64,000 nt of DNA, from the NCBI RefSeq assembly GCF_902826655.1, contig NZ_CADEFR010000001.1, positions 77,546 through 141,545 on the forward strand. Reading direction: 5' to 3'. Of the stretch, positions 7,801 to 23,693 are shown in pieces. Position numbers and translations under genes: made by a program. The notes beneath the pieces are model-generated. The model did no database searches, was not told where the DNA came from, and saw nothing but the letters and a program-made list of their open reading frames with translations. The DNA is from an uncultured Methylibium sp. (GTDB lineage: Bacteria > Pseudomonadota > Gammaproteobacteria > Burkholderiales > Burkholderiaceae_C). How positions within the stretch are numbered: position 1 is the first letter of the stretch; the number at the start of each line of letters is the position of its first letter.

Positions 7801-8406
7801 CATCAGCGGACTGACCTGGTGCGACACGCTGACCTGCGTGAAACCCGCCTCGCGTGCCAGCCGCGCCGCCGCTTCCTCGTGCGCCGTGTAGCGGTAGCCG
7901 TGCATGAAGACGATCGCCACGCTGCGCAGGCCGGCGTCGAAGGCGGCCCAGAGGCGCTCGCGCAGGTGGGCTTCGTCTAGAGGCATCACCACGCTGCCGT
8001 CGGCGGCCAGCCGCTCCTGCGCCTCGATCACGCGGCAGTACAGCAGCTCGGGCAGCACGATGTGGCGGTCGAAGAGGCGCGGCCGGTCCTGGTAGGCGAT
8101 GCGCAGTGCATCACGGAAACCCCGGGTCGTGACCAGCAGCGTCGGCTCGCCGCGGCGCTCGAGCAGCGCGTTGGTGGCGACGGTGGTGCCCATCTTCACG
8201 CACTCGACCCGGTCCGGCGTGATCGGCTCGGCGGGCTTCAGGCCCAGCAGGTGGCGGATGCCGGCGAGCGCCGCGTCGCGGTACTGCTCGGGGTTCTCGG
8301 ACAGCAGCTTGTGGGTCACGAGGCTGCCGTCCGGGCGCTTGCCGACCACGTCGGTGAAGGTGCCCCCGCGGTCGATCCAGAACTGCCAGCGCGTCGTCGC
8401 TTCCAT
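4807..8406 (-). CDS. Fused hydantoinase A/B (5-oxoprolinase family) protein
   Basis: This 1199-residue enzyme carries an N-terminal HyuA half ([19 protein letters not shown], later [12 protein letters not shown]) and a C-terminal HyuB half (starting near [23 protein letters not shown], ending in ETPGGGGYG). The fusion is typical of ATP-dependent 5-oxoprolinases, which open 5-oxoproline to glutamate, but hydantoinases share the fold, so the substrate is uncertain. The ATG at 8406 was preferred over an upstream GTG at 8415 because it gives the usual N-terminus and lies 7 nt after a TAGAGT hexamer. The lipoprotein gene follows in an ATGA overlap. Confidence 0.88.
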
Positions 8407-8413
8407 GCTGCGC

Positions 8414-8419
8414 ACTCTA
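8414..8419 (-). promoter_or_regulatory. Candidate -10 hexamer (TAGAGT) of the hydantoinase gene
   Basis: On the minus strand TAGAGT ends 7 nt before the ATG at 8406, consistent with a leaderless start. No convincing -35 is seen. Confidence 0.3.
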
Positions 8420-8470
8420 CTAGCGGCTGAAGACCCCGCAATTCCGGCTTTCGGCGCGGGCCGCCGCTCC

Positions 8471-8476
8471 TAGCAT
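8471..8476 (+). promoter_or_regulatory. Candidate -10 hexamer (TAGCAT) of the GspE/PilB-type gene
   Basis: TAGCAT ends 7 nt before the ATG at 8484 and no Shine-Dalgarno sequence is present, consistent with a leaderless transcript. The -35 is weak at best. Confidence 0.35.
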
Positions 8477-8483
8477 CGCCGCC

Positions 8484-11033
8484 ATGACCGACCTGTCGTC
8501 CCCGCCGCTGACCCTGGTGAACCTGCCGGGCGCCGACCCGCGCCCGGACGATGCGTCGACCTCGTCGACAAAAACGCGCCACGCCCCGTTCTGCTGGCCG
8601 ACGCCGCCGTTCGCCGCCTACCCGCAGACCGGCGAGCAGACCCAGGCCCAGCCCTGCACCATCGAGGGCCTGAACGGCAAGCTGGTCCACGGCCGGCTGA
8701 TCCAGTTCGTGCCCGAGGAGAGCGTCGCCAACGTGCAGGTGCCGCCGGCCCGCACGACGCTGCCGCTGCAGTTCGGCCAGTTCCGCAGCCTCGCGCTGAC
8801 CGAGCCGCTGCAGCCCACCGCGTCGCACGGCGACGACCCCCACGCCGCGATGCTGGGCCACCGGCCCCGCACGCGATTCCGCCTGATGCTGAAGGCCGGT
8901 GCGCCGCTGGAAGGCGAGACCATCGGCCATGTCGAGACCGCCTTCGGCCTGTTCCTGTTTCCGCCCGCCGACGACAGCGACGCGGTGATCCGCCTCTTCG
9001 TGCCGGCCGAGGCGCTGGTCGCCACCGAGATCGGCCCGCGCCTGGGCGAGCTGCTGATCGAGAGCCGCGCTGCCACACCCGAGCAGGTGCAGGAGGCCGC
9101 GCAGATGCAGCAGCAGCTGCGCAGCCAGAAGCTGGGCGACATCCTGGTCACCCAGCGCATCGTGACGTCGGACCAGCTGCTGGCCGCGATCGCGCAGCAG
9201 AAGCAGATGCCGATGGTGCGCATCGGCGAGGCGCTGATCGCGCTGAAGCTGATCAACGCCGCGCAGCTGGACGAGGCGCTGGAGCAGCAGAAGGCCGACC
9301 GCAGCGTGCCGATCGGCGAGCTGCTGATCCGCCTGGGTCGCGTCTCGCGCACCGATCTGCAGACCGCGCTGGCGCGCAAGATGGGCTATCCGCTGGTCGA
9401 CGTCGGCGCCTTCCCGATCGAGGCCGATGCGCTGCGCAAGCTGCCGCATCCGGTGGCCGAGCGCCTGAACGCGCTGCCGCTGCTGCTGCGCGAGGGCACG
9501 CTGGTCGTCGCCGTCGAAGACCCGTCGCGGCGCGCCGCGATCGACGAGATCGAGTTCGCGAGCCAGTGCAAGGTCGCGCCGGTGCTGGCGCGTCCGCACG
9601 ACATCGAGGCCGCGCTGCGCGAGGCCTACGCACGCATCGGCATCGAGATCGCCGGCCACAGCGCGCCGATCGACGCCGGCGGGTTCGACTTCGGGCCGGC
9701 CGACACCAACAAGCTGCTCGAGAGCCTGGAGCGCGAGAACGCCGACCAGCAGAAGCGCGAGCTCGGCGAGAAGCAGATCGAGCAGAGCGACAACTCGCTG
9801 GTGCGCCTGATCCACACGATGATCATCGAGGCGCACAACCAGGGCGTCTCCGACATCCACATCGAGAACTACCCCGGCAAGGACAAGCTCAAGATCCGCT
9901 TCCGCAAGGACGGCCTGCTGCGTCCCTACCTGGAGCTGCCGCACACCTATCGCAACGCGATGATCGGGCGCATCAAGATCATGTGCGACCTCGACATCTC
10001 CGAGCGCCGCAAGCCGCAGGACGGCAAGATCAACTTCGCCAAGTTCTCGGCCGGCCACAAGCTCGAGCTGCGCGTCGCCACCATCCCCACCAACAACGGC
10101 CTCGAGGACGTGGTGATGCGCCTGCTGGCGTCGGCGCGGCCGGTGCCGGTCGACAAGCTGGGCCTGAGCGCACGCCACCTGGCGCAGCTCAAGGACGCGA
10201 TGGAGCGGCCCTACGGCCTGGTGCTGTGCGTCGGCCCGACCGGCTCGGGCAAGACGACCACGCTGCACTCGGCGCTTTCACACATCAACGTGCCCGAGCG
10301 CAAGATCTGGACCGCCGAGGACCCGATCGAGATCACCCAGCCCGGCCTGCGCCAGGTGCAGGTCAACCCCAAGATCGACTGGACCTTCGCGAAGGCGCTG
10401 CGCGCCTTCCTGCGCGCCGACCCGGACGTCATCATGGTCGGCGAGGTGCGCGACGAGGAGACCGCGCGCATCGCGATCGAGGCCTCGCTGACCGGTCACC
10501 TGGTGCTGTCCACGCTGCACACCAACAGCGCGCCCGAGACCGTGACGCGCCTGCTCGACATGGGCATGGACCCGTTCAACTTTGCCGACTCGCTGCTGCT
10601 GGTCGCGGCGCAGCGCCTGGTGCGCCGCCTGTGTGCCGACTGCCGCAGCAGCCGCCCGATGAGCGACGAGGAGGTCGAGGAACTGCTCGACGACCACCTG
10701 TTCGTGCAGCATCCGCAGGATCCGGTGGCCGCGCGCACCGCGCTGCGCGAGGGCTGGCTGGGCCGCTACGGCCGCGACGGGCGGCTCACGCACTTCCACA
10801 GCCCGGGCTGCCACGCCTGCGGCCACACCGGCTACCGCGGCCGCTGCGGCATCCACGAGCTGATGCCGATCTCGCGCGAGCTGCGCCGCCTGATCCAGAC
10901 CGGCGCGCGCGCCGAGGAGCTGCAGCAGGTCGCCCTCACCGAGGGCATGCACACGCTGCGCCAGGACGGCATCGAGAAGGTACTGCAGGGCCTGACCTCG
11001 ATCGACGAGGTCCGGGCCACCAGCAACGTCTAG
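8484..11033 (+). CDS. GspE/PilB-type secretion ATPase with tandem N-terminal repeats
   Basis: This 849-residue protein ends in a type II secretion/type IV pilus extension ATPase domain. Walker A GPTGSGKT lies at about 584-591, the Walker B region PDVIMVGEVRDEE near 647-659, and four-cysteine zinc motifs CADC (~717) and CHACGHTGYRGRCG (~776). The N-terminal half is unusual: after an unrecognised region come repeated ~45-residue MshEN-like units (GELLIESRAATPEQV, GDILVTQRIVTSDQL, GEALIALKLINAAQL, GELLIRLGRVSRTDL). MshEN domains bind cyclic di-GMP in relatives. No pilus or secretin genes are adjacent, so the machine it drives is unknown. Confidence 0.88.
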   Translation: MTDLSSPPLTLVNLPGADPRPDDASTSSTKTRHAPFCWPTPPFAAYPQTGEQTQAQPCTIEGLNGKLVHGRLIQFVPEESVANVQVPPARTTLPLQFGQFRSLALTEPLQPTASHGDDPHAAMLGHRPRTRFRLMLKAGAPLEGETIGHVETAFGLFLFPPADDSDAVIRLFVPAEALVATEIGPRLGELLIESRAATPEQVQEAAQMQQQLRSQKLGDILVTQRIVTSDQLLAAIAQQKQMPMVRIGEALIALKLINAAQLDEALEQQKADRSVPIGELLIRLGRVSRTDLQTALARKMGYPLVDVGAFPIEADALRKLPHPVAERLNALPLLLREGTLVVAVEDPSRRAAIDEIEFASQCKVAPVLARPHDIEAALREAYARIGIEIAGHSAPIDAGGFDFGPADTNKLLESLERENADQQKRELGEKQIEQSDNSLVRLIHTMIIEAHNQGVSDIHIENYPGKDKLKIRFRKDGLLRPYLELPHTYRNAMIGRIKIMCDLDISERRKPQDGKINFAKFSAGHKLELRVATIPTNNGLEDVVMRLLASARPVPVDKLGLSARHLAQLKDAMERPYGLVLCVGPTGSGKTTTLHSALSHINVPERKIWTAEDPIEITQPGLRQVQVNPKIDWTFAKALRAFLRADPDVIMVGEVRDEETARIAIEASLTGHLVLSTLHTNSAPETVTRLLDMGMDPFNFADSLLLVAAQRLVRRLCADCRSSRPMSDEEVEELLDDHLFVQHPQDPVAARTALREGWLGRYGRDGRLTHFHSPGCHACGHTGYRGRCGIHELMPISRELRRLIQTGARAEELQQVALTEGMHTLRQDGIEKVLQGLTSIDEVRATSNV

Positions 11034-11040
11034 CGCCGGC

Positions 11041-11541
11041 TCAGGCGGCGGCTGCGCGCGTGCCCTGGCCGCGCAGCCAGCGCAGCTGCAGCACCAGGCC
11101 GACCACGTAGATCAGCATCAGCGTCCCGTAGATCGGCTTGAACTCCGGCGCCTCAGCGTTGGGCAGCACGGGCGCGCCCAGCGGCACGCGCGTCAGCGTC
11201 TCGGTGAAGGCCGGGATCATGTGGAACAGCATCGTCGACGTGTAGGCGATCGCCTGGGCCTGGCGCGACCACGCGCCCAGCAGGCCCTTCAGCTCGATCG
11301 CCGCGCCCGCGGCCAGCGCCAGGATCGTCAGGATGGACAGCACGTGCGGCGGTCCGAAGCCGCCGTGCTGGAAGATGCCCAGGCCGGTCAGCGCCGTCAG
11401 CAGCGTGGTCACGACATAGGTTTTGCCGGGCGGTCTGGCGAGCGCGATCTCCTTGTGGCGCGCCAGGGCCCACACACCGGTCGCGACGGCGACCAGGCTG
11501 ATCAGCGTGTGCACGATGCCGAGGGAAGTCAGTCCGAACAT
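11041..11541 (-). CDS. Small multi-spanning membrane protein
   Basis: This 166-residue protein has about four to five hydrophobic segments (LGIVHTLISLVAVATGVWAL, TTLLTALTGLGIF, VLSILTILALAAGAAIEL, IYGTLMLIYVVGLVLQL). A conserved-looking FHMIPAFTETLTRVP loop precedes the last segment. I do not recognise the family with confidence. It lies 51 bp downstream of the alpha-E gene on the same strand, so it may be the last gene of the ATP-grasp/alpha-E unit. It converges with the GspE-type gene across a 7-bp gap. Confidence 0.7.
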   Translation of the reverse strand: MFGLTSLGIVHTLISLVAVATGVWALARHKEIALARPPGKTYVVTTLLTALTGLGIFQHGGFGPPHVLSILTILALAAGAAIELKGLLGAWSRQAQAIAYTSTMLFHMIPAFTETLTRVPLGAPVLPNAEAPEFKPIYGTLMLIYVVGLVLQLRWLRGQGTRAAAA

Positions 11542-11592
11542 CGAAGGCTCCTCGCGAGAGTGGACAAACGGACCCGCTGCAGGAAGACGCGG

Positions 11593-12549
11593 CTAGACCG
11601 GCACCAGGAAGTCCCTGCTGATGCCGACGCCCAGGTCGCCGACGCGGTCGAGGAACTGCGTCAGGAAGGCGTGCAGGCCGGTGGCCAGGATCTCGTCGAT
11701 GCGACCGAAGCTCAGGTCGGCGCGCAGGCGGCCGGCGCGGCGCAGGGTCTCGTCGCTCTGCTCGTTGGCCACCATCTTGAGGTTGCCGACGAGCTCGTTC
11801 ATGCAGGCCGCCAGCGAGCGCGGCATGTCGGCGCGCAGGATCAGCAGCTCGGCGACCTTGTCGGGCCGGATCACGTTGCGGTAGACCTTGCGGTAGACCT
11901 CGAAGCCGGACACGGTGCGCAGGATCGCGCTCCAGTAGTAGAAGTCGACCTCGACCGGCTCGCGCTGCTCGCGCACGCCGAAGAACTCGCTCTGGGCGCC
12001 ATGGAACTTGACGTCCAGCAGCCGCGCCGTGTTGTCGGCGCGTTCGAGGAAGGTGCCGATGCGCAGGAAGTGGAAGCTCTCGTCCTGCAGCATCGTGCCC
12101 AGCGTCACGCCGCGCGACAGGTGCGAGCGGAACTTGACCCACTCGAACAGCTCCGACGGGTCGCGGTGGAAGTCGCCGCCCGCCACCAGGCGCTTGAACT
12201 CGAGCCAGGTGGTGTTGGCGGTCTCCCAGACCTCGGTGGTCAGCGTGCCGCGCACGGCGCGCGCGTTCTCGCGCGCGGCGCTGAGGCAGGAGTAGATGCT
12301 CGAGGCGTTGGTCTCGTCGCGCACCATGTAGTCCATCACCTCGCGCGCGTTCACGCTGGTGTGCTTGCGGTGGTAGTCGCGCGTCAGCTCGCTGATCGAC
12401 AGCAGGCCGCGCCAGCCCTGCTCGGTGGCCTCGCTGGATTGCGGCAGCAGCGAGGTCTGGTAGTTGACGTCGAGCATGCGGGCGGTGTTCTCGGCGCGCT
12501 CGGTGTAGCGGGCCATCCAGAACAGGTGGTCGGCGGTGCGGGACAGCAT
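11593..12549 (-). CDS. Alpha-E domain protein
   Basis: This 318-residue all-helical protein opens with the signature MLSRTADHLFWMARYTERAENTARML, the hallmark of alpha-E proteins. Family members are found almost only beside circularly permuted ATP-grasp ligases and transglutaminase-like proteases, in a predicted peptide-modification pathway whose product is unknown. It starts 14 bp downstream of the ATP-grasp gene, with a GGAGGAGAGA ribosome binding site, so the two are one transcription unit. The same domain is fused to an ATP-grasp in the gene ending at 14987. Confidence 0.9.
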   Translation of the reverse strand: MLSRTADHLFWMARYTERAENTARMLDVNYQTSLLPQSSEATEQGWRGLLSISELTRDYHRKHTSVNAREVMDYMVRDETNASSIYSCLSAARENARAVRGTLTTEVWETANTTWLEFKRLVAGGDFHRDPSELFEWVKFRSHLSRGVTLGTMLQDESFHFLRIGTFLERADNTARLLDVKFHGAQSEFFGVREQREPVEVDFYYWSAILRTVSGFEVYRKVYRNVIRPDKVAELLILRADMPRSLAACMNELVGNLKMVANEQSDETLRRAGRLRADLSFGRIDEILATGLHAFLTQFLDRVGDLGVGISRDFLVPV

Positions 12550-12563
12550 GGTTCTCTCCTCCC

Positions 12564-13997
12564 TCAGGCCTCGAGCATCCACGTATCTTTGGTGCCGCCG
12601 CCCTGCGAGGAGTTGACGACCAGCGACCCCTCCTTCAGCGCGACGCGCGTCAGCCCGCCGGGCACCATCTGCACCGTCTTGCCCGACAGCACGAAGGGCC
12701 GCAGGTCGATGTGGCGCGGTGCGACGCCGCTCTCCACGTAGGTCGGGCAGGTCGACAGCGCGAGCGTGGGCTGGGCGATGTAGTTGCTGGGGTTGGCCAG
12801 CAGCTGCGCACGGAAGGCCTCGACCTCGGCCCGGCTGGCGGCCGGCCCGACCAGCATGCCGTAGCCGCCGGCACCGTGCACTTCCTTCACGACCAGCTCG
12901 GACAGATGCGCCAGCACGTACTTCAGGTCCTCGGCGTCGCGGCAGAGGTAGGTCGGCACGTTGTTCAGGATGGGCTTCTCGCCGAGGTAGAACTCGATCA
13001 TCTTCGGCACGTAGGGGTAGATCGACTTGTCGTCCGCGACCCCGGTGCCGACCGCGTTGGACAGGTTGACGTTGCCGGCACGGTAGACGTCCAGCAGGCC
13101 GGCGCAGCCGAGCGTGGAGTCGGGCCGGAACACCTTGGGGTCGAGGAAGTCGTCGTCGACGCGGCGGTAGATCACGTCGACGCGCCGCGGCCCCTGGGTC
13201 GTGCGCATGTACAGGTAGTGGTCCTTGACGAACAGGTCCTTGCCCTCGACCAGCTCGACGCCCATCTGCTGCGCCAGGAAGGCATGCTCGAAGTAGGCGC
13301 TGTTGTACATGCCCGGCGTGAGCACGACGACGGTCGGCTCGTTGACGCCGCTGGGCGCCACCGCCCGCAGCGTGTCGAGCAGCAGGTCGGGGTAGTGCGC
13401 CACCGGCGCCACGCGGTGCAGGCTGAACAGCTCGGGGAAGAGCCGCATCATCATCTTGCGGTTCTCGAGCATGTAGCTCACGCCGCTGGGCACGCGCAGG
13501 TTGTCCTCGAGCACGTAGTAGCTGCCGCTGCCGTCCGGGTTGGCGGCGCGGACGATGTCGATGCCGGCGATGTGCGAGTACACGTCGCCGGGCACCGAGA
13601 CGCCCATCATCTCGGGCCGGAACTGCGCGTTCTTGAAGACCTGCTCGCCGGGCACGATGCCGGCCTTGATGATCTCCTGGTCGTGGTAGACGTCGTGGAT
13701 GAAGCGGTTGAGCGCGTTGACGCGCTGCTTCAGGCCCTTCTCCATCTCGCGCCATTCCTGCGCGGGGATGATGCGCGGGATCAGGTCGAAGGGGATGAGC
13801 CGCTCGGTGCCCGAGCCGTCCTCGTCCTTGGCGCCGTAGACGGCGAAGGTGATGCCGACGCGGCGGAAGATCATCTCCGCCTCTTCGCGGCGCGCCTTCA
13901 TGGCCTCGGCCGGCTGCTGCGCGAGCCAGCGGTCGTAGCCAGCGTAGTGCGCCCGCACGGCACGGTCCGCAGCGTGCATCTCGTCGTACTTCGTCAT
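12564..13997 (-). CDS. Circularly permuted type 2 ATP-grasp protein
   Basis: This 477-residue protein carries the family's characteristic blocks: IFRRVGITFAVYG, a PFDLIPRII segment, YVLEDNLRVPSGVSYMLENR, VVLTPGMYNSAYFEHAFLA, VDVIYRRVDDDFLDP, and the C-terminal GGLTRVAL and GGGTKDTWML. Such proteins are predicted amide-bond ligases working with alpha-E and transglutaminase partners. The ATG at 13997 is chosen over an upstream GTG because GGGAG lies 5-9 nt before it. A strong sigma-54 promoter match sits 25 bp upstream, giving a leader of about 13 nt. Confidence 0.92.
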   Translation of the reverse strand: MTKYDEMHAADRAVRAHYAGYDRWLAQQPAEAMKARREEAEMIFRRVGITFAVYGAKDEDGSGTERLIPFDLIPRIIPAQEWREMEKGLKQRVNALNRFIHDVYHDQEIIKAGIVPGEQVFKNAQFRPEMMGVSVPGDVYSHIAGIDIVRAANPDGSGSYYVLEDNLRVPSGVSYMLENRKMMMRLFPELFSLHRVAPVAHYPDLLLDTLRAVAPSGVNEPTVVVLTPGMYNSAYFEHAFLAQQMGVELVEGKDLFVKDHYLYMRTTQGPRRVDVIYRRVDDDFLDPKVFRPDSTLGCAGLLDVYRAGNVNLSNAVGTGVADDKSIYPYVPKMIEFYLGEKPILNNVPTYLCRDAEDLKYVLAHLSELVVKEVHGAGGYGMLVGPAASRAEVEAFRAQLLANPSNYIAQPTLALSTCPTYVESGVAPRHIDLRPFVLSGKTVQMVPGGLTRVALKEGSLVVNSSQGGGTKDTWMLEA

Positions 13998-14021
13998 CGT
14001 GTCTCCCACGCGCCGAGGTTT

Positions 14022-14037
14022 AGCAGGGATTGTGCCA
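14022..14037 (-). promoter_or_regulatory. Sigma-54 (-24/-12) promoter for ATP-grasp/alpha-E unit
   Basis: On the minus strand the site reads TGGCACAATCCCTGCT. It has the invariant GG-N10-GC spacing and matches 10 of the 12 defined positions of the consensus TGGCACG-N4-TTGCW. It lies in the 64-bp gap between two genes on the same strand and would start transcription about 13 nt before the ATG at 13997, just upstream of the GGGAG ribosome binding site. This predicts activation by an enhancer-binding protein such as NtrC. Confidence 0.65.
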
Positions 14038-14061
14038 AGCGGTCCTCTGCCGGTGATGGTG

Positions 14062-15009
14062 TCAGGCCGGGCGCGTGGAGACGCGCACGGTGAGTGTGTG
14101 CCGTCCGCCGCCGCGGATCACGCCGCTCAGGGGCGTGACGTCGCGGTAGTCGCGGCCATGGGCCACCCGCACGTGGCCGGTCCCGGCCACGCAGTCATTG
14201 GTGGGGTCGAGTTCCAGCCAGTCGCTGCCGCTGCCGTCGGCGCGCGGCAGCGCCACCGCCACCCAGGCATGCGAGGCGTCGGCGCCCTGCAGGCGCGGCT
14301 GGCCCGGCGGCGGGTCGGTCAGCAGGTAGCCGCTGACGTAGCGCGCCGCCAGCCCCAGCGAGCGCAGCGCGCCGATCATCACGTGGGCGAAGTCCTGGCA
14401 GACGCCGCGCTTCTGCTCGAAGGCCTGCAGCATCGGCGTGTCGACCTCGGTGCTGGCCGGCTCGTAGGTGAACTCCTCGTGCAGCCGGTGCATCAGCGCG
14501 CAGGCGGCTTCGTCCAGCGGCCGGCCCGCGACGAAGGACGGCGCCGCCCAGGCCTGCAGCACGGCAGCCCGCCCCACCAGGCCGGAGTCGTAGACGAACT
14601 CCGCCGCCGCATCGAGCGGCCGGCCGGCCTGGTAGCGCCAGTGCTCGCGCGCGGCCTCCCAGGGCATCGCCGGCGGCAGCGGCGGCGACGGCGCGAGCCG
14701 GACGCGGCTGACGGCGCGCACGCACAGCGACTCGTGCGGCACCGTCAGCGAGAAGTGGCCGAGCGCATTGCCCCAGGTGTCGACGCGCTGCTGCACGCGT
14801 GCCGGAGCCGGGTCGATGTGCAGGGCGAAGTCCAGCAGCTCCTGGGCGCCGTCGCCGCGCGGCTCGAGCATCGCGATGTGATGGGCCAGCTCGACCGCAC
14901 TGCCGTAGGCGTAGGTGGTCTCGTGCTCGACGATCAGTTCGGCCGGCCCGGCCCCGGCCGGTGTCGGCGCCGGGGCTTCCGTCGCCTCAGACCGCAAGAT
15001 GCTGTTCAT
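14062..15009 (-). CDS. Transglutaminase-like cysteine protease domain protein
   Basis: This 315-residue protein has an N-terminal beta domain (HETTYAYGSAVELAHHIAML) and a transglutaminase core. The catalytic triad is visible as Cys204 in GVCQDFAHVMIGALR, His247 in SHAWVAV and Asp268 in WLELDPTND. Its start lies 23 bp inside the end of the ATP-grasp/alpha-E fusion gene, so it is co-transcribed and probably coupled. In this gene family the enzyme is thought to process or cleave the peptide product of the ATP-grasp ligases; no substrate is known. Confidence 0.9.
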   Translation of the reverse strand: MNSILRSEATEAPAPTPAGAGPAELIVEHETTYAYGSAVELAHHIAMLEPRGDGAQELLDFALHIDPAPARVQQRVDTWGNALGHFSLTVPHESLCVRAVSRVRLAPSPPLPPAMPWEAAREHWRYQAGRPLDAAAEFVYDSGLVGRAAVLQAWAAPSFVAGRPLDEAACALMHRLHEEFTYEPASTEVDTPMLQAFEQKRGVCQDFAHVMIGALRSLGLAARYVSGYLLTDPPPGQPRLQGADASHAWVAVALPRADGSGSDWLELDPTNDCVAGTGHVRVAHGRDYRDVTPLSGVIRGGGRHTLTVRVSTRPA

Positions 15010-17617
15010 GCGATCCGGCCAGCGCGAAGTAGCGCCGGCCCACCTCGTCGGACAGCCGCATGCCGGCATCGGCCAGGCGGTCGGCCAGCGCCACCACGCG
15101 CGCGTCGTCGACCTGGGTCTCGTCGCCGCCCTGGTGGGCCTGCTCGCACAGCTCGACCAGCGTCGCGCCGGCGCCCGCCGCCGGCAGCAGGGCCAGCAGG
15201 CCCGCGGCGGCTTGCGGGCCGCCGGGCAGCTTGCCGATCTCGGTGCGCAGGCGCCGCAGCACGCAGCCCAGCGCCCGCGGGTTGGCCTCGTCGATCACCA
15301 GCAGGTCCAGCAGCGCCAGCGCCTCCTGGCGGCCGGGATAGCGGGCGCGGTAGGTGATGCTGCTGTCGAACAGGCGCAGCAGCAGGTCGAAGCCGTGCGT
15401 GGTGTGCACCGCGCCGCCCTCGAAGAAGGCCCCGAGCGCACCGCCCATCGCGATCAGGCGCTCGGCCAGGCGGCCGATGGTCAGCAGGCGCCAGCCGTCG
15501 TCGCGGGTCATGCGGTCGCTCTGCGCGCCGGTCACCGCCGCGAGCTGCTGCGCCAGGCGCTCCAGCGCGGCCTGCAGTTCGTCGCTGGCGAAACCGACGC
15601 CGGTCGGCTCGGGGCCGGGCGCGATGCCGGCCCACAGCATGCGCGCGTTGAAGTCCTCGGCCATCGCGCGCACCAGGGCGGCGTGCTCGGGCGACAGCCG
15701 GTCGCGCAGCGCGCCGACGGCGCGGTCCAGCGCGGCCAGGTTGTAGGCGATGCTCTGCTGCTCGTGCGCGTCGGCCAGCCCGGCCACGACGGCGCGCTCG
15801 AACACGCGCGGCGACTGCGTCAGCGAGGGCACGCCCCAGGGCGCCAGGCCGCTCAGCTGCGCCAGCAGCGACATCGCGTCGAGCACCGGTGCCGGCGTGT
15901 CGTCGTCCTCCTCGACCAGCGTGACGCTGGCCAGCGCGATGCGCACCAGGTGTTCGGTGCGCTCGGTGTAGCGGCCCATCCAGAACAGGTTCTCGGCGGT
16001 GCGGCTCGACACGGCGCGGCGGTGGCCGGCGATCTCGTCGGGCCTGAGGCGCTGCGGCAGCATCGAGTAGGTGTCGACCGGGCCGTCGCGCAGCACCCAG
16101 GTGTCGAGGCTGGCGCCGCCCTGCTGCATGGACACCGCATGCGGGTCGCGCGCCGCGATGCGCGTCATGCCGCCGGGCAGCACGCGCCAGCCGCCGCGGC
16201 CGTCGGCGATGGCGTAGACGCGCAGCATCGCCGTGCGCGGCCGCAGCGCGCCGCCCTGCCACCACGGGGTCTGCGAGAACGGCAGGTAGCGCTGCAGCGT
16301 GTGCAGGTCGGGGTCGGCCTCGATGCGCGCGCGCCAGGCCTCCAGCTGGTCGTCCGACAGCGTCGATCCGATCGCCGGCTCGAAGTCGCGGCCCGGCACG
16401 CCGGGGAAGGTCGGACGGATGACGCGCGCGGCCAGCTCGTCCTGCGTGGCCTGCCAGGCGGCGTCCTCGCCGCACCACCAGGTCGGCAGCGCCGGCAGCG
16501 CGAGCGGCTCGCCGAGCAGCCGCTCGGCCAGCGCCGGCAGGAAGCCCTGCAGGCCGGGCGACTCGAGGAAGCTCGCACCCAGCGCATTGGCCATCGCCAG
16601 CTTGCCGGCGCGCAGCACCTGCAGCAGTCCGGGCACGCCGAGCGCGGAGTCGGGCCGCAGCTCGAGCGGGTCGCACCAGGGGTCGTCCAGTCGCCGCAGC
16701 AGGCCGTGCACCGGCTCCAGTCCCTGCACGGTCTTGAGGTAGAGCCGCTCGTCGCGCACCGTCAGGTCGCCGCCCTCGACCAGCGACAGGCCGAGGTAGC
16801 GCGCCAGGTAGGCCTGCTCGAAGTAGGTCTCGTTGTACGGCCCCGGCGTCAGCAGCGCGAGCCGCGGCGAGGCGCAGCCGTCGGCCGCGGCGATGGCCTG
16901 GGCCGGCAGCAGCAGGCTGTCGACGAGGCAGCGGTAGCTGGACGCGATGTGCTCGACCTGCAGCTCGCGGAAGGCCTCGGGGAACTGGCGCGAGACGATC
17001 AGCCGGTTCTCCAGCACGTAGCCCAGGCCCGACGGCGCCTGGCTGCGCTGCGAGACGATGGACCAGCTGCCGTCGGGGCCGCGCGCGATGTCGAAGGCCT
17101 GCACGTGCAGGCGCACGCCGCTGGCGGGCTCGATGCCCTGCACCGCGCGCAGGTAGCCGGGATGCCCCAGCACCAGCGCAGCCGGCAGCAGGCCTTCGCG
17201 CAGCAGCCGCCGCTCGCCGTAGCAGTCGGCCAGCACTGCCTCGAGCAGGCGCGCGCGCTGCGCGATGCCGGCCTCGATCTGCCGCCAGTCGGCCGGCTCG
17301 ATCAGCAGCGGCAGCGGCCCCAGCGACCAGGGCCGCTGGCTGGAGCCGCCCTCGCCGAGGGCCTGGTAGACGTTGTAGGTGACGCCGTCGCGGTGGATCT
17401 GCTGGGCGATCTGCTCGACGCGGCGGTCGAAGCCCTCGAGGCCCTCGTCGCCGATCAGCCCGAAGAAGCGTTGCCAGGGTTCGCGCAGATGCTCGCCCTT
17501 GGGGTCCAGCAACTCGTCGTAGTGGCCGCTCTCGGCCGGCATCGCGGCCCAGAGCACGCCCTTCGCCACCGCGGCCCTGGCGTCCGCGGTGTCGGCTTCT
17601 GGCGAGGACTGCGGCAC
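14987..17617 (-). CDS. Fused circularly permuted ATP-grasp / alpha-E protein
   Basis: This ~876-residue protein joins two modules found as separate genes at 12564-13997 and 11593-12549. The first ~500 residues carry ATP-grasp blocks (HRDGVTYNVYQALGEGG, SGLGYVLENRLIVSRQF, LLTPGPYNETYFEQAYLA, GLLRRLDDPWCDPLEL, GGMTRIAARD). The last ~330 carry the alpha-E signature SSRTAENLFWMGRYTERTEHLVRIA. The start is uncertain: no ATG fits near the preceding stop, so the GTG at 17617 is used; GTG at 17569 or 17557, or ATG at 17542, are alternatives. It follows the large transglutaminase gene by 20 bp or less. Confidence 0.88.
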   Translation of the reverse strand: MPQSSPEADTADARAAVAKGVLWAAMPAESGHYDELLDPKGEHLREPWQRFFGLIGDEGLEGFDRRVEQIAQQIHRDGVTYNVYQALGEGGSSQRPWSLGPLPLLIEPADWRQIEAGIAQRARLLEAVLADCYGERRLLREGLLPAALVLGHPGYLRAVQGIEPASGVRLHVQAFDIARGPDGSWSIVSQRSQAPSGLGYVLENRLIVSRQFPEAFRELQVEHIASSYRCLVDSLLLPAQAIAAADGCASPRLALLTPGPYNETYFEQAYLARYLGLSLVEGGDLTVRDERLYLKTVQGLEPVHGLLRRLDDPWCDPLELRPDSALGVPGLLQVLRAGKLAMANALGASFLESPGLQGFLPALAERLLGEPLALPALPTWWCGEDAAWQATQDELAARVIRPTFPGVPGRDFEPAIGSTLSDDQLEAWRARIEADPDLHTLQRYLPFSQTPWWQGGALRPRTAMLRVYAIADGRGGWRVLPGGMTRIAARDPHAVSMQQGGASLDTWVLRDGPVDTYSMLPQRLRPDEIAGHRRAVSSRTAENLFWMGRYTERTEHLVRIALASVTLVEEDDDTPAPVLDAMSLLAQLSGLAPWGVPSLTQSPRVFERAVVAGLADAHEQQSIAYNLAALDRAVGALRDRLSPEHAALVRAMAEDFNARMLWAGIAPGPEPTGVGFASDELQAALERLAQQLAAVTGAQSDRMTRDDGWRLLTIGRLAERLIAMGGALGAFFEGGAVHTTHGFDLLLRLFDSSITYRARYPGRQEALALLDLLVIDEANPRALGCVLRRLRTEIGKLPGGPQAAAGLLALLPAAGAGATLVELCEQAHQGGDETQVDDARVVALADRLADAGMRLSDEVGRRYFALAGSHEQHLAV

Positions 17618-17637
17618 CGCAGCGGCGGGGATGGCGT

Positions 17638-20600
17638 TCAGAGCTGGCGCAGGTCGAGGGTGAACGGGAACTCGAGGCTCGGCGGGACCGCGGCCACCTG
17701 CATCCTGCCCGGCGTGTGGCCGAGCTTGAAGAAGCGCGCCAGCCGCCGGCTTTCGGCCTCGTAGGCGTTGACCGGGAAGCTGTCGTGGTTGCGACCGCCG
17801 GGATGCGCCACATGATAGCGACAGCCCCCGAGCGAACGGCCCACCCAGGTGTCGACGATGTCGAAGGACAGCGGCGCGTGGGTCGGGATCGTCGGGTGCA
17901 GCGCCGAGGCCGGCGCCCAGGCCTTGTAGCGCACGCCGGCCACGTGCTCGGCGACGCGCCCGGTCGGGTGCAGCGGCAGCGGCGCGCCGTTGACGGTGAC
18001 GACGTGGCGGTTGCCGTTCAGGCCGCCGGCCTTGACCTCCAGGCGCTCGAGCGACGAGTCGACGTAGCGCACCGTGCCGCCCGGCGCGCCCTCCTCGCCC
18101 ATCACGTGCCAGGGCTCGAGCGCGGTCCGCAGCGTCAGGTGGATGCCGGCCACCGAGACCTCGCCGATCATCGGGAAGCGGAACTCGAAGTGCGGCGCGA
18201 ACCACGCGGCGTCGAAGCCGAAGCCCTGGTCGCGCAGTTCGGCCAGCACGTCGTTGAAGTCCATCTGCACGAAGCTCGGCAGCAGGAAGCGGTCGTGCAG
18301 CTCGGTGCCCCAGCGCGTCAGGCGCGTCGTGCCGCGGCCCGTGTACGGCGTCTTCCAGAACCAGGCCACCAGCGCGCGCAGCAGCAGCTGCTGCACCAGG
18401 CTCATGCGGGCATGCGGCGGCATCTCGAAGGCGCGCAGCTCCAGCAGGCCCAGGCGGCCGGTCGGCCCGTCGGGCGAGTAGAGCTTGTCGACGCAGAACT
18501 CCGCGCGGTGGGTGTTGCCGGTGACGTCGATCAGGATGTTGCGCAGCGTGCGGTCGACGAGCCAGGGCGGGATCTGGCCGGGCTGGCCGTAGGTCGCGGT
18601 CTGGCGCTCGATCTCCTGCAGCGCGATCTCGAGCTCGTAGACCTGGTCGTTGCGCGCCTCGTCGATGCGCGGCGCCTGGCTGGTCGGCCCGATGAACATG
18701 CCGCTGAACAGGTAGCTCAGCGACGGGTGGTTGTGCCAGTAGGTCAGCAGGCTGGCCAGCAGGTCCGGCCGGCGCAGGAAGGGGCTGTCGGCCGGCGTCG
18801 CGCCGCCGAGCACGAAGTGGTTGCCGCCGCCGGTGCCGGTGTGGCGACCGTCGAGCATGAACTTCTCGGTCGACAGCCGCGTCTCGTGAGCGGCCTCGTA
18901 CAGGAATTCGGTGTGGTCGACCAGCTCGTCCCAGCTGGACGCCGGGTGGATGTTGACCTCGATGACGCCGGGATCGGGCGTGACCTGCAGCATCTTCAGG
19001 CGCGCGTCGCGCGGCGGCGGGTAGCCCTCGAGCACGATCTTCACGCCCAGCGACGCGGCGGTGGCCTCGACGGCGGCCAGCAAGTCGAGGTAGTCGTCCA
19101 GCACGGCCAGCGGCGGCATGAAGACGTAGAGGATGCCGCCGCGCGCCTCGACGCACATCGCGGTGCGGGTGATCCAGTGCGCCGACTCGAAGCGGTCGGG
19201 CATGTGCGTGAGGCCACGCGCCGCGGCGCCCCGGCCGTTGCCGTCACCGCCCGCGCGGCCCGCGGCCGCACCGCTGCCCGCGTTCGCAGCCTCGCCGGCC
19301 GCCGGCCGCAGCGCGTGACTCCCGTACTGCGCGCGCAAGGCCGCCACCGAGCGCAGCCGCCCGGCCGGCGCGAAGGGGTCGGTCTCGATCAGGTAGGGGT
19401 AGTCGGCCTTCGACACCCAGGGCAGCGAGTCCAGCGGCAGCCGGTAGCCCATCGGCGAGTCGCCGGGGAAGAGGTACATCCGTTCGTCGCGGAAGAACCA
19501 GGGTCCGGTGGTCCAGCTCGGGCCGGCGAGGCCCGGTGCGCCGTTCTCCCGCTTGATCGGCAGCATGTAGCCGACGACCTTGGTCAGGCCCTGGTCGAAG
19601 ACCTTGCGCAGCCGTGCGCGCTCCATCTCGTCGTCGAGCCGCGCGTCGAAGGGATCGACGTTGACCGGCAGGCGCCGCTCGCGCCACAGGTAGTACCAGG
19701 TGTCCTCGTAGCCGGCCTGGATGTAGTCGGTCGCGAGGCCGAGCTTGGACGACAGCCGCTCGATGAAGGCCTTGGCGTCGACCTCGGTGCACGACGAGGG
19801 CTGGCGCTCGTCGGCGAACAGCGTCGGGTCGATCCAGCAGGGCTCGCCGTCGGCGCGCCAGAAGATGCTGAGCGCCCAGCGCGGCAGCTGCTCGCCCGGG
19901 TACCACTTGCCCTGGCCGAAGTGCAGGAAGCCGCCGGCGCCGTAGCGCGCGCGCAGCTTCTGCACCAGCTCGTTGGCGTAGCCGCGCTTGGTCGGCCCCA
20001 GCGCGGCGGTGTTCCATTCGGCGCCGTCGCGGTCGGTCACCGAGACGAAGGTCGGCTCGCCACCCTGGGTGAGCCGCACGTCGCCGGCCGCCAGCCGCGC
20101 GTCGACCGTCTTGCCGAGCGCCACCACGCCGGCCCATTGCGCGTCGGTGTAGGGCTTGGTGACGCGCGGCGATTCGAAGATGCGCGTGACGCCCATCGTG
20201 TGGGTGAACTCGACCTCGCTCTTGTCGACCGCGCCGGTCACCGGTGCGGCGCTCGACGGCTCGGGGGTGCAGGCGACCGGGATGTGGCCCTCGCCGGCCA
20301 TCAGGCCCGAGGTCGGGTCCAGGCCGATCCAGCCGGCGCCCGGCAGGTAGACCTCGCACCAGGCGTGCAGGTCGGTGAAGTCGGTCTCGGCGCCGGAGGG
20401 ACCGTCGAGCGCCTTCACGTCGGGCTTGAGCTGGATCAGGTAGCCCGACACGAAGCGCGCCGCCAGACCCAGGTGGCGCAGCGCCTGCACCAGCAGCCAG
20501 CCGGTGTCGCGGCACGAGCCGGCGGCCGTCTCCAGCGTCTGCTCGGGGGTCTGCACGCCGGGCTCCATGCGGATCAGGTAGCGGATGTCCTGCTGCAGCC

Positions 20601-21051
20601 GCTGGTTGATGCCGACGAGGAAGTCGATGGTGCGCTGCGTCTTCAGCGGCACGCTGTCGAGGAAGGCCTTGAACCGGGGCGTCAGCTCGCCCTTCACCAG
20701 GTAGGGCGCGAGTTCGCGCTTGAGGCCGTCGTCGTAGACGAAGGGAAAGTTCTCGGCGCTGGGCTCGAGGAAGAAATCGAAGGGGTTGTAGACCGCCATC
20801 TCGGCGACCAGGTCCACGGTGATCTTGAACTCGGTCGTCTTGTCGGGGAACACCAGCCGCGCCAGGTAGTTGGCGAACGGATCCTGCTGCCAGTTGATGA
20901 AGTGGCCGACCGGCTCGATGCGCAGCGAATAGCTCAGGATCGGCGTGCGGCAGTGCGGCGCCGGGCGCAAGCGCACGACCTGCGGCCCGAGCGCGATGCG
21001 CCGGTCGTAGCGGTAGTGCGTGACGTGGTTCAGCGCGACATGGATGGACAA
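17638..21051 (-). CDS. Large transglutaminase / DUF2126 protein
   Basis: This 1137-residue protein begins with a transglutaminase module whose triad is visible as Cys180 (AGSCRDTGWLLVQALRHLG), His229 (DLHAWCEVYLP) and Asp245 (WIGLDPTSG). The remaining ~850 residues are the DUF2126 region, with GGEPTFVSV, HFGQGKWYPGEQLPRW, TGTGGGNHFVLGG and a glutamine-synthetase-like ring of Glu/His residues. DUF2126 has been proposed to act as an amidoligase-type domain. The start codon is TTG, supported by GAAGGAG eight nt upstream; no in-frame ATG lies nearby. A sigma-54 promoter match lies 70 bp upstream. Confidence 0.9.
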   Translation of the reverse strand: MSIHVALNHVTHYRYDRRIALGPQVVRLRPAPHCRTPILSYSLRIEPVGHFINWQQDPFANYLARLVFPDKTTEFKITVDLVAEMAVYNPFDFFLEPSAENFPFVYDDGLKRELAPYLVKGELTPRFKAFLDSVPLKTQRTIDFLVGINQRLQQDIRYLIRMEPGVQTPEQTLETAAGSCRDTGWLLVQALRHLGLAARFVSGYLIQLKPDVKALDGPSGAETDFTDLHAWCEVYLPGAGWIGLDPTSGLMAGEGHIPVACTPEPSSAAPVTGAVDKSEVEFTHTMGVTRIFESPRVTKPYTDAQWAGVVALGKTVDARLAAGDVRLTQGGEPTFVSVTDRDGAEWNTAALGPTKRGYANELVQKLRARYGAGGFLHFGQGKWYPGEQLPRWALSIFWRADGEPCWIDPTLFADERQPSSCTEVDAKAFIERLSSKLGLATDYIQAGYEDTWYYLWRERRLPVNVDPFDARLDDEMERARLRKVFDQGLTKVVGYMLPIKRENGAPGLAGPSWTTGPWFFRDERMYLFPGDSPMGYRLPLDSLPWVSKADYPYLIETDPFAPAGRLRSVAALRAQYGSHALRPAAGEAANAGSGAAAGRAGGDGNGRGAAARGLTHMPDRFESAHWITRTAMCVEARGGILYVFMPPLAVLDDYLDLLAAVEATAASLGVKIVLEGYPPPRDARLKMLQVTPDPGVIEVNIHPASSWDELVDHTEFLYEAAHETRLSTEKFMLDGRHTGTGGGNHFVLGGATPADSPFLRRPDLLASLLTYWHNHPSLSYLFSGMFIGPTSQAPRIDEARNDQVYELEIALQEIERQTATYGQPGQIPPWLVDRTLRNILIDVTGNTHRAEFCVDKLYSPDGPTGRLGLLELRAFEMPPHARMSLVQQLLLRALVAWFWKTPYTGRGTTRLTRWGTELHDRFLLPSFVQMDFNDVLAELRDQGFGFDAAWFAPHFEFRFPMIGEVSVAGIHLTLRTALEPWHVMGEEGAPGGTVRYVDSSLERLEVKAGGLNGNRHVVTVNGAPLPLHPTGRVAEHVAGVRYKAWAPASALHPTIPTHAPLSFDIVDTWVGRSLGGCRYHVAHPGGRNHDSFPVNAYEAESRRLARFFKLGHTPGRMQVAAVPPSLEFPFTLDLRQL

Positions 21052-21090: not shown

Positions 21091-23604
21091 TCAGTCGGAC
21101 GGTTCGGACTCGGCGGGAATAGCAACTTCCACGCCATTGTCAGGGCGATCCGTGTGCTGCCAGTAGCGTCTGCGCGTCTCGCGCCAGCAGGTCGATCCGT
21201 CCGGGCCGTGTCGCCAGGCGCCGCAGCGCGGGCTGTCGATCACCGCGATGCCGCGCTCGCGCAAGCGTGCCATCACCTCGGCCGCCGGATGCCCGAAGCG
21301 GTTGCGATAGCCGGCCTGCAGCACCGCCACGCGCGGCGCGACGGCGTCGAGCAAGGCCGCGCTCGACGAGGTCTTGCTGCCGTGGTGCGGCACCAGCAGC
21401 ACGTCGCTGGCGAGGGCCGCCGGCGGCAGCGTGGCCAGCCGCAGTTCCTGCTCGCGCTCCAGGTCGCCGGTCAGCAGCACGCGCCGCTCGATGCCGCCCC
21501 AGCGGCCGACGACGCGCAGCACGCAGCTCAGGGTGTTGGGCTTGATGCGTTCGTGCTCGGCGCGGTCCAGCATCGCGGCCGGCGGGTGCAGCAGCTCGAA
21601 GGACACGCCGTCCCAGTCCCAGCGCTGGCCGGCGGCGCAGGCATCGACCGGCACGCCCTGCTGCCGCGCCAGCGCCAGCAGCGGGTGGGCGCGCTCCAGC
21701 GAGCCGGACAGCCGCGCCACCGGCAGGCCGCGCAGCAGGGCCGCGGCGCCGCCGACATGGTCGGTGTCGCGATGGCTCAGCATCAGCGTGTCGATGCGAC
21801 GTTCGCCGAGCGCACGCAACAGCGGCAGCAGCACGCGTTCGCCGGCGTCGGTCTCGCGCGAGTACTGCGGGCCGGCGTCGTACAGCAGCGTGTGGCGTGC
21901 GGTGCGCAGCAGCACCGCGGTGCCCTGCCCCACGTCGACCGCGGTCAGCTCGAAGGCGCCCTCCGGCGGCCGCGGCACCTGCGGCCACAGCAGCGGCAGC
22001 AGCAGGGGCAAGGCCAGCGCCCGCACGCGCCAGGGCAGCGGCAGCAGGGCCACGGCCGCGCCGAGCAGGCCGCTGGCCACGGCCCAGGGCGCTGCAGCCG
22101 GCACGGTCCACGACGACCAGGCCGGCGCCGCCAGCACCTGCAGGCCGGCGTTGAGCGCGGCAACGATCCACGCGCCCGCGCTCCACAGCACCGGCAGCAC
22201 GGCGCCCAGCAAGGCCAGCGGCGTGACCAGCAGCGTCACGACCGGGATCGCCGCCAGATTGGCCGCGAAGCCGACCAGCGACAGCTGCTGGAAGAACACC
22301 AGCGTCAGCGGCGCGAGCCCCAGCGTCGCGACGACCTGGGTGCGCAGCGCGCCGCCCAGCAGCGGCCCGAGGCCGGCCAGCCACTCGCGCCAGCGCGGCC
22401 GGTCGGCGACGGCGTCGAGGCCGCTCGACGCGCCGACCAGCGCGCGCGCCTCGCCCGACGCCATCAGCAGGCCCACCGCGACGAAGGACAGCCAGAAGCC
22501 CGGCTGCAGCAGCGCCCAGGGGTCGATGGCGGTCACGACGACCATCGCGCTGCCCCACACCAGCGGCCAGCTCCAGCGCAGCCCGGCTGCGCCGACCACC
22601 GTGACCGTCGCGAGCATCAGCAGCGTCCGCTGCGCCGGCACGCCCCAGCCCGCGAACACCGCGTAGGCAGCGGCCGCCGCCAGGCCGCCCCAGCGCGCAG
22701 CCAGCGGCGCCGGGCAGCGCAGCATCAGCCACGCGCTGCGGCGCCACAGGGCGCCGAGGCCCAGTCCGGCGAGCCACGCGAACATCGTGACGTGCAGACC
22801 GCTGATCGACATCAGGTGGGCGACGCCGGTGGCGCGGTACAGCGCCCAGTCCTCGCGCTCGATCGCGGCCTGGTCGCCGACCGCCAGCGCGGCCAGCACA
22901 CCGGCAGCCGACGCGTCGGGCACGCGTGCGGCGATCGCGTCGCGCACCGTCTGGCGCGCCCGATCCACCGCGTGGCCGGCGTCGTCGCCCAGCAGCCGGT
23001 GAGCGCCGGGGCGTGCCGCGCGCACGTAGCCGGTCGCGCGCACGCCCTGCTCGAAGAGATGCAGTTCGTAGTCGAAGCCCTGCGGGTTGGCCAGGCCGTG
23101 CGGTCGCTTGAGCCGCAGCGTCAGTTGCCAGCGCTGACCGGCGCGCAGCGCGGGCAGCGCCTCGGTGCCGGACGCGTACCAGCCCAGCGACAGCCGCGGC
23201 GGCAGCGCGATGGGTGTGTCGCCGAGCCGCGCCGACTCGACCTCGAAGCGAAAGCGCCAGGCTTCGGGCGAGCGCTGCGGCAGGCTCGCGACGACGCCGA
23301 CCACGGCGAGGTCGCGGCCCTCGAGTTCGGGCGCCAGCGGTGCCGCCAGCCGTGCCCCGGCGCGCCATCCGGTGCTGCCGAAGGCACAGGCGGCGCAGGC
23401 CGCCACCAGCACGATCAGCGCGGCGGCGCCGCGTCGGCGCCCTGCCAGCACGAGCGCCAGCCCCAGCACCCCGGCGCCGACCAGCGCCGCGTAGCCGGGC
23501 ACCGGCCACAGCGCGCCCTGCTGCAACTGCAGGGCGGCCCCCAGCACCCAGCCGAGGCCGGCGGCCAGCCCTGTCGTCCCCGCCGTCGCCGCTGTGCCGC
23601 GCAT
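21091..23604 (-). CDS. comEC: DNA internalization competence protein ComEC/Rec2
   Basis: This 837-residue membrane protein has an N-terminal DUF4131 region, the central competence domain (VPDASAAGVLAALAVGDQAAI, HLMSISGLHVTMFAW) and a C-terminal metallo-beta-lactamase domain (TAVDVGQGTAVLLRT, LSHRDTDHVGGAAALL, LLVPHHGSKTSSS). It forms the inner-membrane channel for single-stranded DNA in natural transformation. The ATG at 23604 follows a TACACT hexamer by 6 nt; a GTG at 23670 would add a tail not expected for the family. The last 46 bp carry a sigma-54 promoter for the next gene. Confidence 0.92.
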   Translation of the reverse strand: MRGTAATAGTTGLAAGLGWVLGAALQLQQGALWPVPGYAALVGAGVLGLALVLAGRRRGAAALIVLVAACAACAFGSTGWRAGARLAAPLAPELEGRDLAVVGVVASLPQRSPEAWRFRFEVESARLGDTPIALPPRLSLGWYASGTEALPALRAGQRWQLTLRLKRPHGLANPQGFDYELHLFEQGVRATGYVRAARPGAHRLLGDDAGHAVDRARQTVRDAIAARVPDASAAGVLAALAVGDQAAIEREDWALYRATGVAHLMSISGLHVTMFAWLAGLGLGALWRRSAWLMLRCPAPLAARWGGLAAAAAYAVFAGWGVPAQRTLLMLATVTVVGAAGLRWSWPLVWGSAMVVVTAIDPWALLQPGFWLSFVAVGLLMASGEARALVGASSGLDAVADRPRWREWLAGLGPLLGGALRTQVVATLGLAPLTLVFFQQLSLVGFAANLAAIPVVTLLVTPLALLGAVLPVLWSAGAWIVAALNAGLQVLAAPAWSSWTVPAAAPWAVASGLLGAAVALLPLPWRVRALALPLLLPLLWPQVPRPPEGAFELTAVDVGQGTAVLLRTARHTLLYDAGPQYSRETDAGERVLLPLLRALGERRIDTLMLSHRDTDHVGGAAALLRGLPVARLSGSLERAHPLLALARQQGVPVDACAAGQRWDWDGVSFELLHPPAAMLDRAEHERIKPNTLSCVLRVVGRWGGIERRVLLTGDLEREQELRLATLPPAALASDVLLVPHHGSKTSSSAALLDAVAPRVAVLQAGYRNRFGHPAAEVMARLRERGIAVIDSPRCGAWRHGPDGSTCWRETRRRYWQHTDRPDNGVEVAIPAESEPSD
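21121..21136 (-). promoter_or_regulatory. Sigma-54 (-24/-12) promoter inside the 3' end of comEC
   Basis: On the minus strand the site reads TGGCGTGGAAGTTGCT, with exact GG-N10-GC spacing and 10 of 12 defined consensus positions, including a full TTGCT -12 element. It lies within the last codons of comEC and points at the large transglutaminase gene, giving a leader of about 59 nt. Its agreement with the independent site at 14022-14037 strengthens both. Confidence 0.6.
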
Positions 23605-23610
23605 CGATCC

Positions 23611-23616
23611 AGTGTA
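23611..23616 (-). promoter_or_regulatory. Candidate -10 hexamer (TACACT) of comEC
   Basis: On the minus strand TACACT ends 6 nt before the comEC ATG at 23604 and no Shine-Dalgarno sequence is present, consistent with a leaderless message. Confidence 0.35.
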
Positions 23617-23693
23617 GGAAGCGACGCCGCCGGCCGCATCCTCGCGCGGTAGGATGCCGGCCACTTCCACGGCGCCTGCGGAGCCTCTCCATC

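Follow-up and report, generated by a model that had tools for sequence, protein, structure and literature searches.

Does a block of genes that encodes two ATP-grasp proteins hold two ATP-grasp ligases? This question is raised by a block of ATP-grasp, Alpha-E and transglutaminase genes at 11041-21051 of a 64-kb stretch of DNA from an uncultured Methylibium sp. of the Burkholderiales (the whole stretch is called the window here). A preliminary description took this block for a duplicated one. It proposed a fused and a split ligase unit within one pathway, which would allow two successive or alternative ligations. Our analysis gives a different answer. The block is made up of two modules of old origin, and each is preceded by a sigma-54-type promoter of its own. 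The block is not a local duplication. Judged by its residues, the fused ATP-grasp/Alpha-E protein is a conserved pseudo-ligase, which has kept the fold and lost the Mg/ATP residues. We give a probability of about 55% to the following reading: the block represents, in Methylibium, a bacterial system for amide tagging that is built from ATP-grasp, Alpha-E, transglutaminase and Anbu proteins, with a pseudo-ligase, a live module B, DUF2126 as a second ligase and nitrogen control through sigma-54. Our observations cover the content and order of the genes, the residues lost, the predicted folds, sites that resemble promoters, and co-occurrence.

Gene content of the two modules

Every gene of the block lies on the minus strand. 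In the direction of transcription, the order is comEC, DUF2126-transglutaminase, fused ATP-grasp/Alpha-E, transglutaminase, separate ATP-grasp, separate Alpha-E, and a 166-aa membrane protein. Module A (DUF2126-FUSED-TG) begins with a transglutaminase fused to DUF2126, a predicted glutamine-synthetase-fold ligase (17638-21051; Pfam Bact_transglu_N, Transglut_core and DUF2126, the last with 1339 bits). Its transglutaminase part covers residues 1-260, with the triad Cys180, His229 and Asp245. The DUF2126 part covers residues 276-1135 (about 17647-20226). The second gene (14987 to about 17617) encodes a circularly permuted ATP-grasp fused to Alpha-E (Pfam CP_ATPgrasp_2, 446 bits; Alpha-E, 185 bits), whose domains lie at about 16154-17311 and at 15026-16009, respectively. 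The third is a transglutaminase-like gene by Pfam (14062 to about 15009, with a longer start possible at 15069), and it keeps Cys-His-Asp.

Module B is composed of the split circularly permuted ATP-grasp ligase (12564-13997; CP_ATPgrasp, 560 bits) and an Alpha-E protein (11593-12549; Pfam, 326 bits; whole-genome match, 5e-98). In some relatives, a transglutaminase of its own and Anbu follow behind. The Pfam scores are high, so the family assignments of the block genes are not due to chance. A search of the whole genome gave two Alpha-E domains, both inside the block.

The neighbourhoods of relatives were compared in 20 + 10 stretches, in 80 named loci (the best 80 of 591 confirmed stretches) and in 40 distant stretches of 34 genomes, chosen from the genomes of the co-occurrence survey described below. 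Loci L033 and L062 come from the same genomes as L063 and L079. They were omitted from the counts of ATP-grasp residues, triads, NtrC dyads and gene order and retained in those of sigma-54 sites and of module B transglutaminases. Length and coverage filters removed short, cut or partial genes from the residue and triad counts. Among the best 80 stretches, the closest named relative of the split ATP-grasp belongs to Methylibium sp. Root1272 (91% identity).

The transglutaminase triad is nearly invariant in these relatives. Cys and His are present in 94/94 module A, 25/25 module B and 103/103 large transglutaminases, and Asp in 93/94, 25/25 and 103/103. The single strand, the gene families and the Cys-His-Asp triad of both window transglutaminases had all been noted in the preliminary description, and they are confirmed here.

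Loss of active-site residues in the fused protein

The split ATP-grasp of the window has all five putative active-site residues (E168, N170, K328, K375 and D435), and the five are kept in 124 of 124 split proteins. At the same positions, the fused protein of the window has S, R, P, R and M. The 98 fused proteins hold either none or one of the five residues. E168, N170, K328 and D435 are each lost in at least 97 of them, and the glycine loop after K375 is missing in most. The loss of ATP-binding residues, named in the preliminary description as the observation that would speak against two ATP-grasp ligases, is thus found in the fused unit (no protein of 98 with more than one residue, versus all split proteins with five). 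The idea of one fused and one split ATP-grasp ligase is not supported by this comparison.

The ATP-grasp part of the fused protein retains a predicted glutathione-synthetase-like fold, shared with the structure 3n6x. We call it a pseudo-ligase because the usual catalytic residues are lost. It is very probable that it works without standard ATP-grasp chemistry. More tentatively, and with odds that we put well short of even, the fused proteins may form a widespread class of pseudo-ligases, at least in Pseudomonadota and Actinomycetota. Their dead site would have become a site that binds a substrate or a carrier (signature R-x-Q...G...E...E), and the protein would serve as a platform for the glutamine-synthetase-type ligase-transglutaminase. 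The whole would be a tagging system of nitrogen-starved cells with two chemistries, one of ATP-grasp type and one of glutamine-synthetase type. Searches of open-access text gave no mention of the fused protein having an inactive ATP-grasp. As far as we checked, the pseudo-ligase, the two conserved promoters and the presence of DUF2126 only with Alpha-E are new.

Origin of the two modules

Within the window, the ATP-grasp domain of the fused protein shares 33% identity with that of the split one, and the BLAST alignment of the two Alpha-E domains spans only 27 residues. A tree of 82 ATP-grasp sequences places all split proteins in a single clade, distinct from the fused ones (support 0.805), and the fused protein of the window is closest to other fused proteins. 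With midpoint rooting, the fused proteins are not one clade. Considering this and the modest support, we claim the depth of the divergence and not the exact branching. The identity and the tree reject a recent tandem duplication, and the block can no longer be described as a duplicated one.

Where a fused gene shares its stretch with both DUF2126 and a transglutaminase, the three stand on one strand in the order DUF2126-FUSED-TG in 84 of 94 cases. The transglutaminase at 14062 is therefore assigned to the fused gene. The remaining 10 show a rearrangement, are cut or were ambiguous in scoring. True rearrangements occur, for example, in L186, L190, L191, L196 and L197. Which of modules A and B comes first varies, and they can also be divergent or lie at separate loci. 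A module B transglutaminase stands directly behind Alpha-E in 7/55 stretches with a fused gene versus 9/22 without one (77 stretches of at least 18 kb, window included). This pattern is compatible with module B borrowing the transglutaminase of module A, but the numbers are small and come from related loci.

Other arrangements were also seen. In L101, from a Burkholderiaceae metagenome-assembled genome, module A occurs twice and flanks module B on both sides. Two Methylibium relatives with draft genomes (G004 and G005) have one Alpha-E and no DUF2126. In L079, from G004, unrelated open reading frames occupy 4815-9482 between comEC and module B, with no remnants of module A.

Promoter-like sites and probable nitrogen control

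A candidate sigma-54-type promoter, TGGCGTGGAAGTTGCT, lies at 21121-21137 on the minus strand, about 85 bp before the DUF2126 gene and over the 3' end of comEC (21091-23670, minus strand). It has the form GG-N10-GC and matches 10 of 12 consensus bases. Its site is identical in two genus mates (L033 = L063, and L034). A second candidate of the same form, strand and score, TGGCACAATCCCTGCT, occupies 14022-14038, inside a gap of 52 bp ahead of the open reading frame of the split ATP-grasp.

Upstream of split ATP-grasp genes, a site with at least 10/12 matches occurs in 83% of 107 loci, versus 2% of 4000 random stretches (upstream stretches cut by the end of a locus were skipped). Where DUF2126 heads its transcript, such a site is present in 28 of 35 scored cases (five heads were skipped); where it follows module B, in 1 of 36. 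The loci are related, so these percentages are not independent trials. Five 10/12 sites occur on both strands of the 64-kb window, and the two module promoters are among them. A looser scan with two mismatches gave 34 sites versus 27.8 expected, no richer than chance. Therefore, the case for the promoters rests on position and conservation. Sequence match and conservation together point to a putative -24/-12 promoter before each module. NtrC-like dyads with at least 10/12 matches accompany 24% of 122 loci and 4% of 3000 controls.

Published regulons agree with a link to nitrogen. For the homologues I35_5080-5083 of Burkholderia cenocepacia, fold changes of -6.0 to -9.4 are given in an ntrC mutant (PMC5491218). 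In Pseudomonas putida on nitrate versus ammonium, Anbu (PP_2685) is up 4.4 log2 and the CP-ATP-grasp (PP_2688) 4.0 log2 (PMC8050072). The link to nitrogen limitation made in the preliminary description gains from both lines of evidence, and the system may be switched on under this condition through sigma-54.

Co-occurrence of the families and Anbu

We surveyed 249 sampled Pseudomonadota genomes, with a requested completeness of at least 90. Alpha-E is present in 145, DUF2126 in 75 and Anbu in 99. DUF2126 occurs only alongside Alpha-E (75/75 genomes). Two or more Alpha-E are found in 70 of the 75 genomes with DUF2126 versus 10 of the 174 without it (Fisher p about 2e-44, uncorrected for relatedness). 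Anbu accompanies Alpha-E in 97 of its 99 genomes. Among Alpha-E genomes, Anbu is found in 48/75 with DUF2126 and 49/70 without (p 0.83), which is no positive association. The survey upholds the earlier claim that these families co-occur as one system.

The genome of the window has its own Anbu on another contig (G000:C37:25698-26429, equal to L216:6699-7430; Anbu profile, E 1.2e-105). It abuts mutS, is unlinked to the ligase block and has no clear sigma-54-type site upstream. It keeps Thr1, Asp17 and Lys32, the candidate residues named in PMC6376114. An absence of Anbu had been considered, when a search with the Pfam Proteasome family showed only an HslV-sized gene. The Anbu profile then found Anbu, which scores just under the Proteasome cut-off.

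A probable second ligase in module A

DUF2126, by its predicted structure, is probably a glutamine-synthetase-fold domain and the second working ligase of the block. It would be the glutamine-synthetase-like ligase that a tagging system of this kind includes. With DUF2126, a predicted ligase in its own right, the window comes to three ligase-type domains, and one of these looks catalytically dead. A second ligation is still possible, and the likely enzyme for it is the DUF2126 domain, which the preliminary description had not counted as a ligase.

Proposed mechanism

From these data we infer the reactions, partners and product of the system as follows. Module B would be the one live ATP-grasp ligase, which turns a carboxylate into an acyl phosphate and joins it to an amine. 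The split ATP-grasp has the five ligase residues for this, and for a homologue of module B type the release of phosphate from ATP is described in PMC6376114. In module A, DUF2126, joined to a transglutaminase in one polypeptide, would provide a ligase of a different type and form a second amide. The fused pseudo-ligase may act as a binding platform. It would hold a substrate (a peptide, an amine or a carrier protein) and hand it over to DUF2126 and the transglutaminase, or to the ligase of module B. Finally, the transglutaminases and the unlinked Anbu may transfer, trim or remove the amide.

Several points weigh against this reading. K375 remains Lys in 31/98 fused proteins. The DUF2126 model is middling, with a predicted local distance difference test score of 68, and Foldseek alone gave no significant match for it. 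Fused genes lack a nearby DUF2126 in L048, L078 and L213. L048 comes from a single-contig genome (G022, 94% completeness) with zero DUF2126 matches. In L055, L056, L178, L203 and L205, DUF2126 lacks a fused gene, despite room in the stretch. With exceptions in both directions, the partnership of fused protein and DUF2126 is not obligatory, and a strict need of DUF2126 for the fused protein was rejected. Regarding control, only 4 of 17 more distant loci reach 10/12 for sigma-54 and 8 reach 9. No NtrC-like dyad stands out before either window module (8/12, the chance level). In published tests, no peptidase activity was found for Anbu and no specific interaction among the proteins of the Yersinia bercovieri operon (PMC6376114). 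The Anbu operon is described as non-essential and without response to several other conditions (PMC5666114). Any activity, substrate or product named here is a proposal from sequence and predicted structure. A search of open-access text for a report of the product found none.

Among the alternatives, salvage of amines or nitrogen without a protein tag fares best, and we consider it unlikely. DUF2126 would make gamma-glutamyl-type amides, like GmaS, or the transglutaminases would deamidate proteins and free nitrogen. However, this leaves Alpha-E, the pseudo-ligase and Anbu unexplained, and each of the 30 largest neighbour clusters is confined to 4 or fewer of the 40 distant stretches (three representatives were annotated).

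Less probable is starvation proteolysis, where isopeptide-linked residues mark proteins for Anbu or other proteases. The near-constant company of Anbu and Alpha-E agrees with it, as do the position of Anbu next to genes of one or the other module in several loci and its induction under nitrogen limitation (PMC8050072). On the other hand, 48 of the 145 Alpha-E genomes lack Anbu. The Anbu of this genome sits unlinked beside mutS without a clear sigma-54-type site, and the missing peptidase activity counts here too.

The least probable, by a hair, is that the fused and split units carry out two successive or alternative ATP-grasp ligations with a re-arranged ATP site in the fused one, given that no fused protein has more than one key residue and most lack the glycine loop.

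Comparison with known systems

The preferred reading, an amide-tagging system with a pseudo-ligase, makes the block a new example of an already known system. The peptide-tagging system predicted by Iyer and colleagues in 2009 reportedly combines circularly permuted ATP-grasp and glutamine-synthetase-like ligases with Alpha-E, an Anbu-type N-terminal nucleophile hydrolase and a transglutaminase. All its parts are in this genome, with the same families and the same co-occurrence. Relative to that system as reported, the two sigma-54-type promoters and the pseudo-ligase status of the fused ATP-grasp are added here.

The Anbu operon of Y. bercovieri and Pseudomonas (ATP-grasp, Alpha-E, transglutaminase and Anbu) resembles the ATP-grasp and Alpha-E of module B, and its nitrogen-linked expression in Pseudomonas is a further likeness. 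In contrast, module B of the window lacks its own transglutaminase, Anbu is unlinked and module A is added. The cluster I35_5080-5083 (BCAM1233-1236) of B. cenocepacia groups an ATP-grasp, an Alpha-E, a transglutaminase and a large transglutaminase under NtrC/sigma-54 activation. The four genes listed in the available part of the source include no fused ATP-grasp/Alpha-E (PMC5491218).

The split ATP-grasp matches Mfla_0391 (PDB 3n6x, 'putative glutathionylspermidine synthase', a putative name only) over its full length with 747 bits. With the fused protein, this structure has the fold in common but not the active-site residues. Similarity to E. coli Gss, a glutathionylspermidine synthetase/amidase, and to eukaryotic glutathione synthetases is low (hhalign probability 0.2%, E 0.34). 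Unlike them, the ATP-grasps of the block have no amidase domain, and the gene context differs. The Pfam scan of the block ATP-grasp proteins listed only CP_ATPgrasp (and Alpha-E) families. The family PF03738 of glutathionylspermidine synthetases had no match in the genome, and in a profile alignment its motifs align with no statistical weight.

Neighbouring loci

The last gene of the block (11041-11541, minus strand), for the 166-aa membrane protein, is placed outside the system. It belongs to no Pfam family, and at E<=1e-5 it matched only itself among the window and 150 other stretches, three genus mates included. It was rejected as a component on this basis, and its earlier inclusion in the block is not sustained. 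Convergent to it, on the plus strand, a PilB/GspE-like ATPase gene (8484-11033) has an MshEN domain and cyclic di-GMP-binding motifs. PILB relatives lie near the block in L062, L079, L095 and L103. A 1202-aa fused hydantoinase A/B protein of 5-oxoprolinase type (OPLAH) is encoded at 4807-8415 on the minus strand; a relative was seen only in L078 among the loci compared.

Further away, a minus-strand cluster (450-2985) starts with the gene of a small DUF2282 peptide (2710-2985). Behind it come genes for an MbnB/TglH/ChrH-type enzyme, for a DUF2063 protein and for DoxX. A sigma-70-family gene resembling those of extracytoplasmic function factors (3070-3663, plus strand) is divergent from this cluster. 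The cluster looks like a metal-related one, of bufferin type, for ribosomally synthesized and post-translationally modified peptides.

Significance

The distinction between a live split ATP-grasp and a fused pseudo-ligase, with DUF2126 as a glutamine-synthetase-type enzyme, guides which protein suits ATP assays and which suits use as a substrate bait. If it is true, the fused protein would give no result in enzyme assays, and its use in pull-downs could lead to the substrate. The two promoters make nitrogen limitation the condition to look under. Judged by Alpha-E, 145 of the 249 Pseudomonadota genomes sampled, more than half, have the system. We regard it as a widespread bacterial gene set that may link peptides or amines to proteins under nitrogen scarcity.

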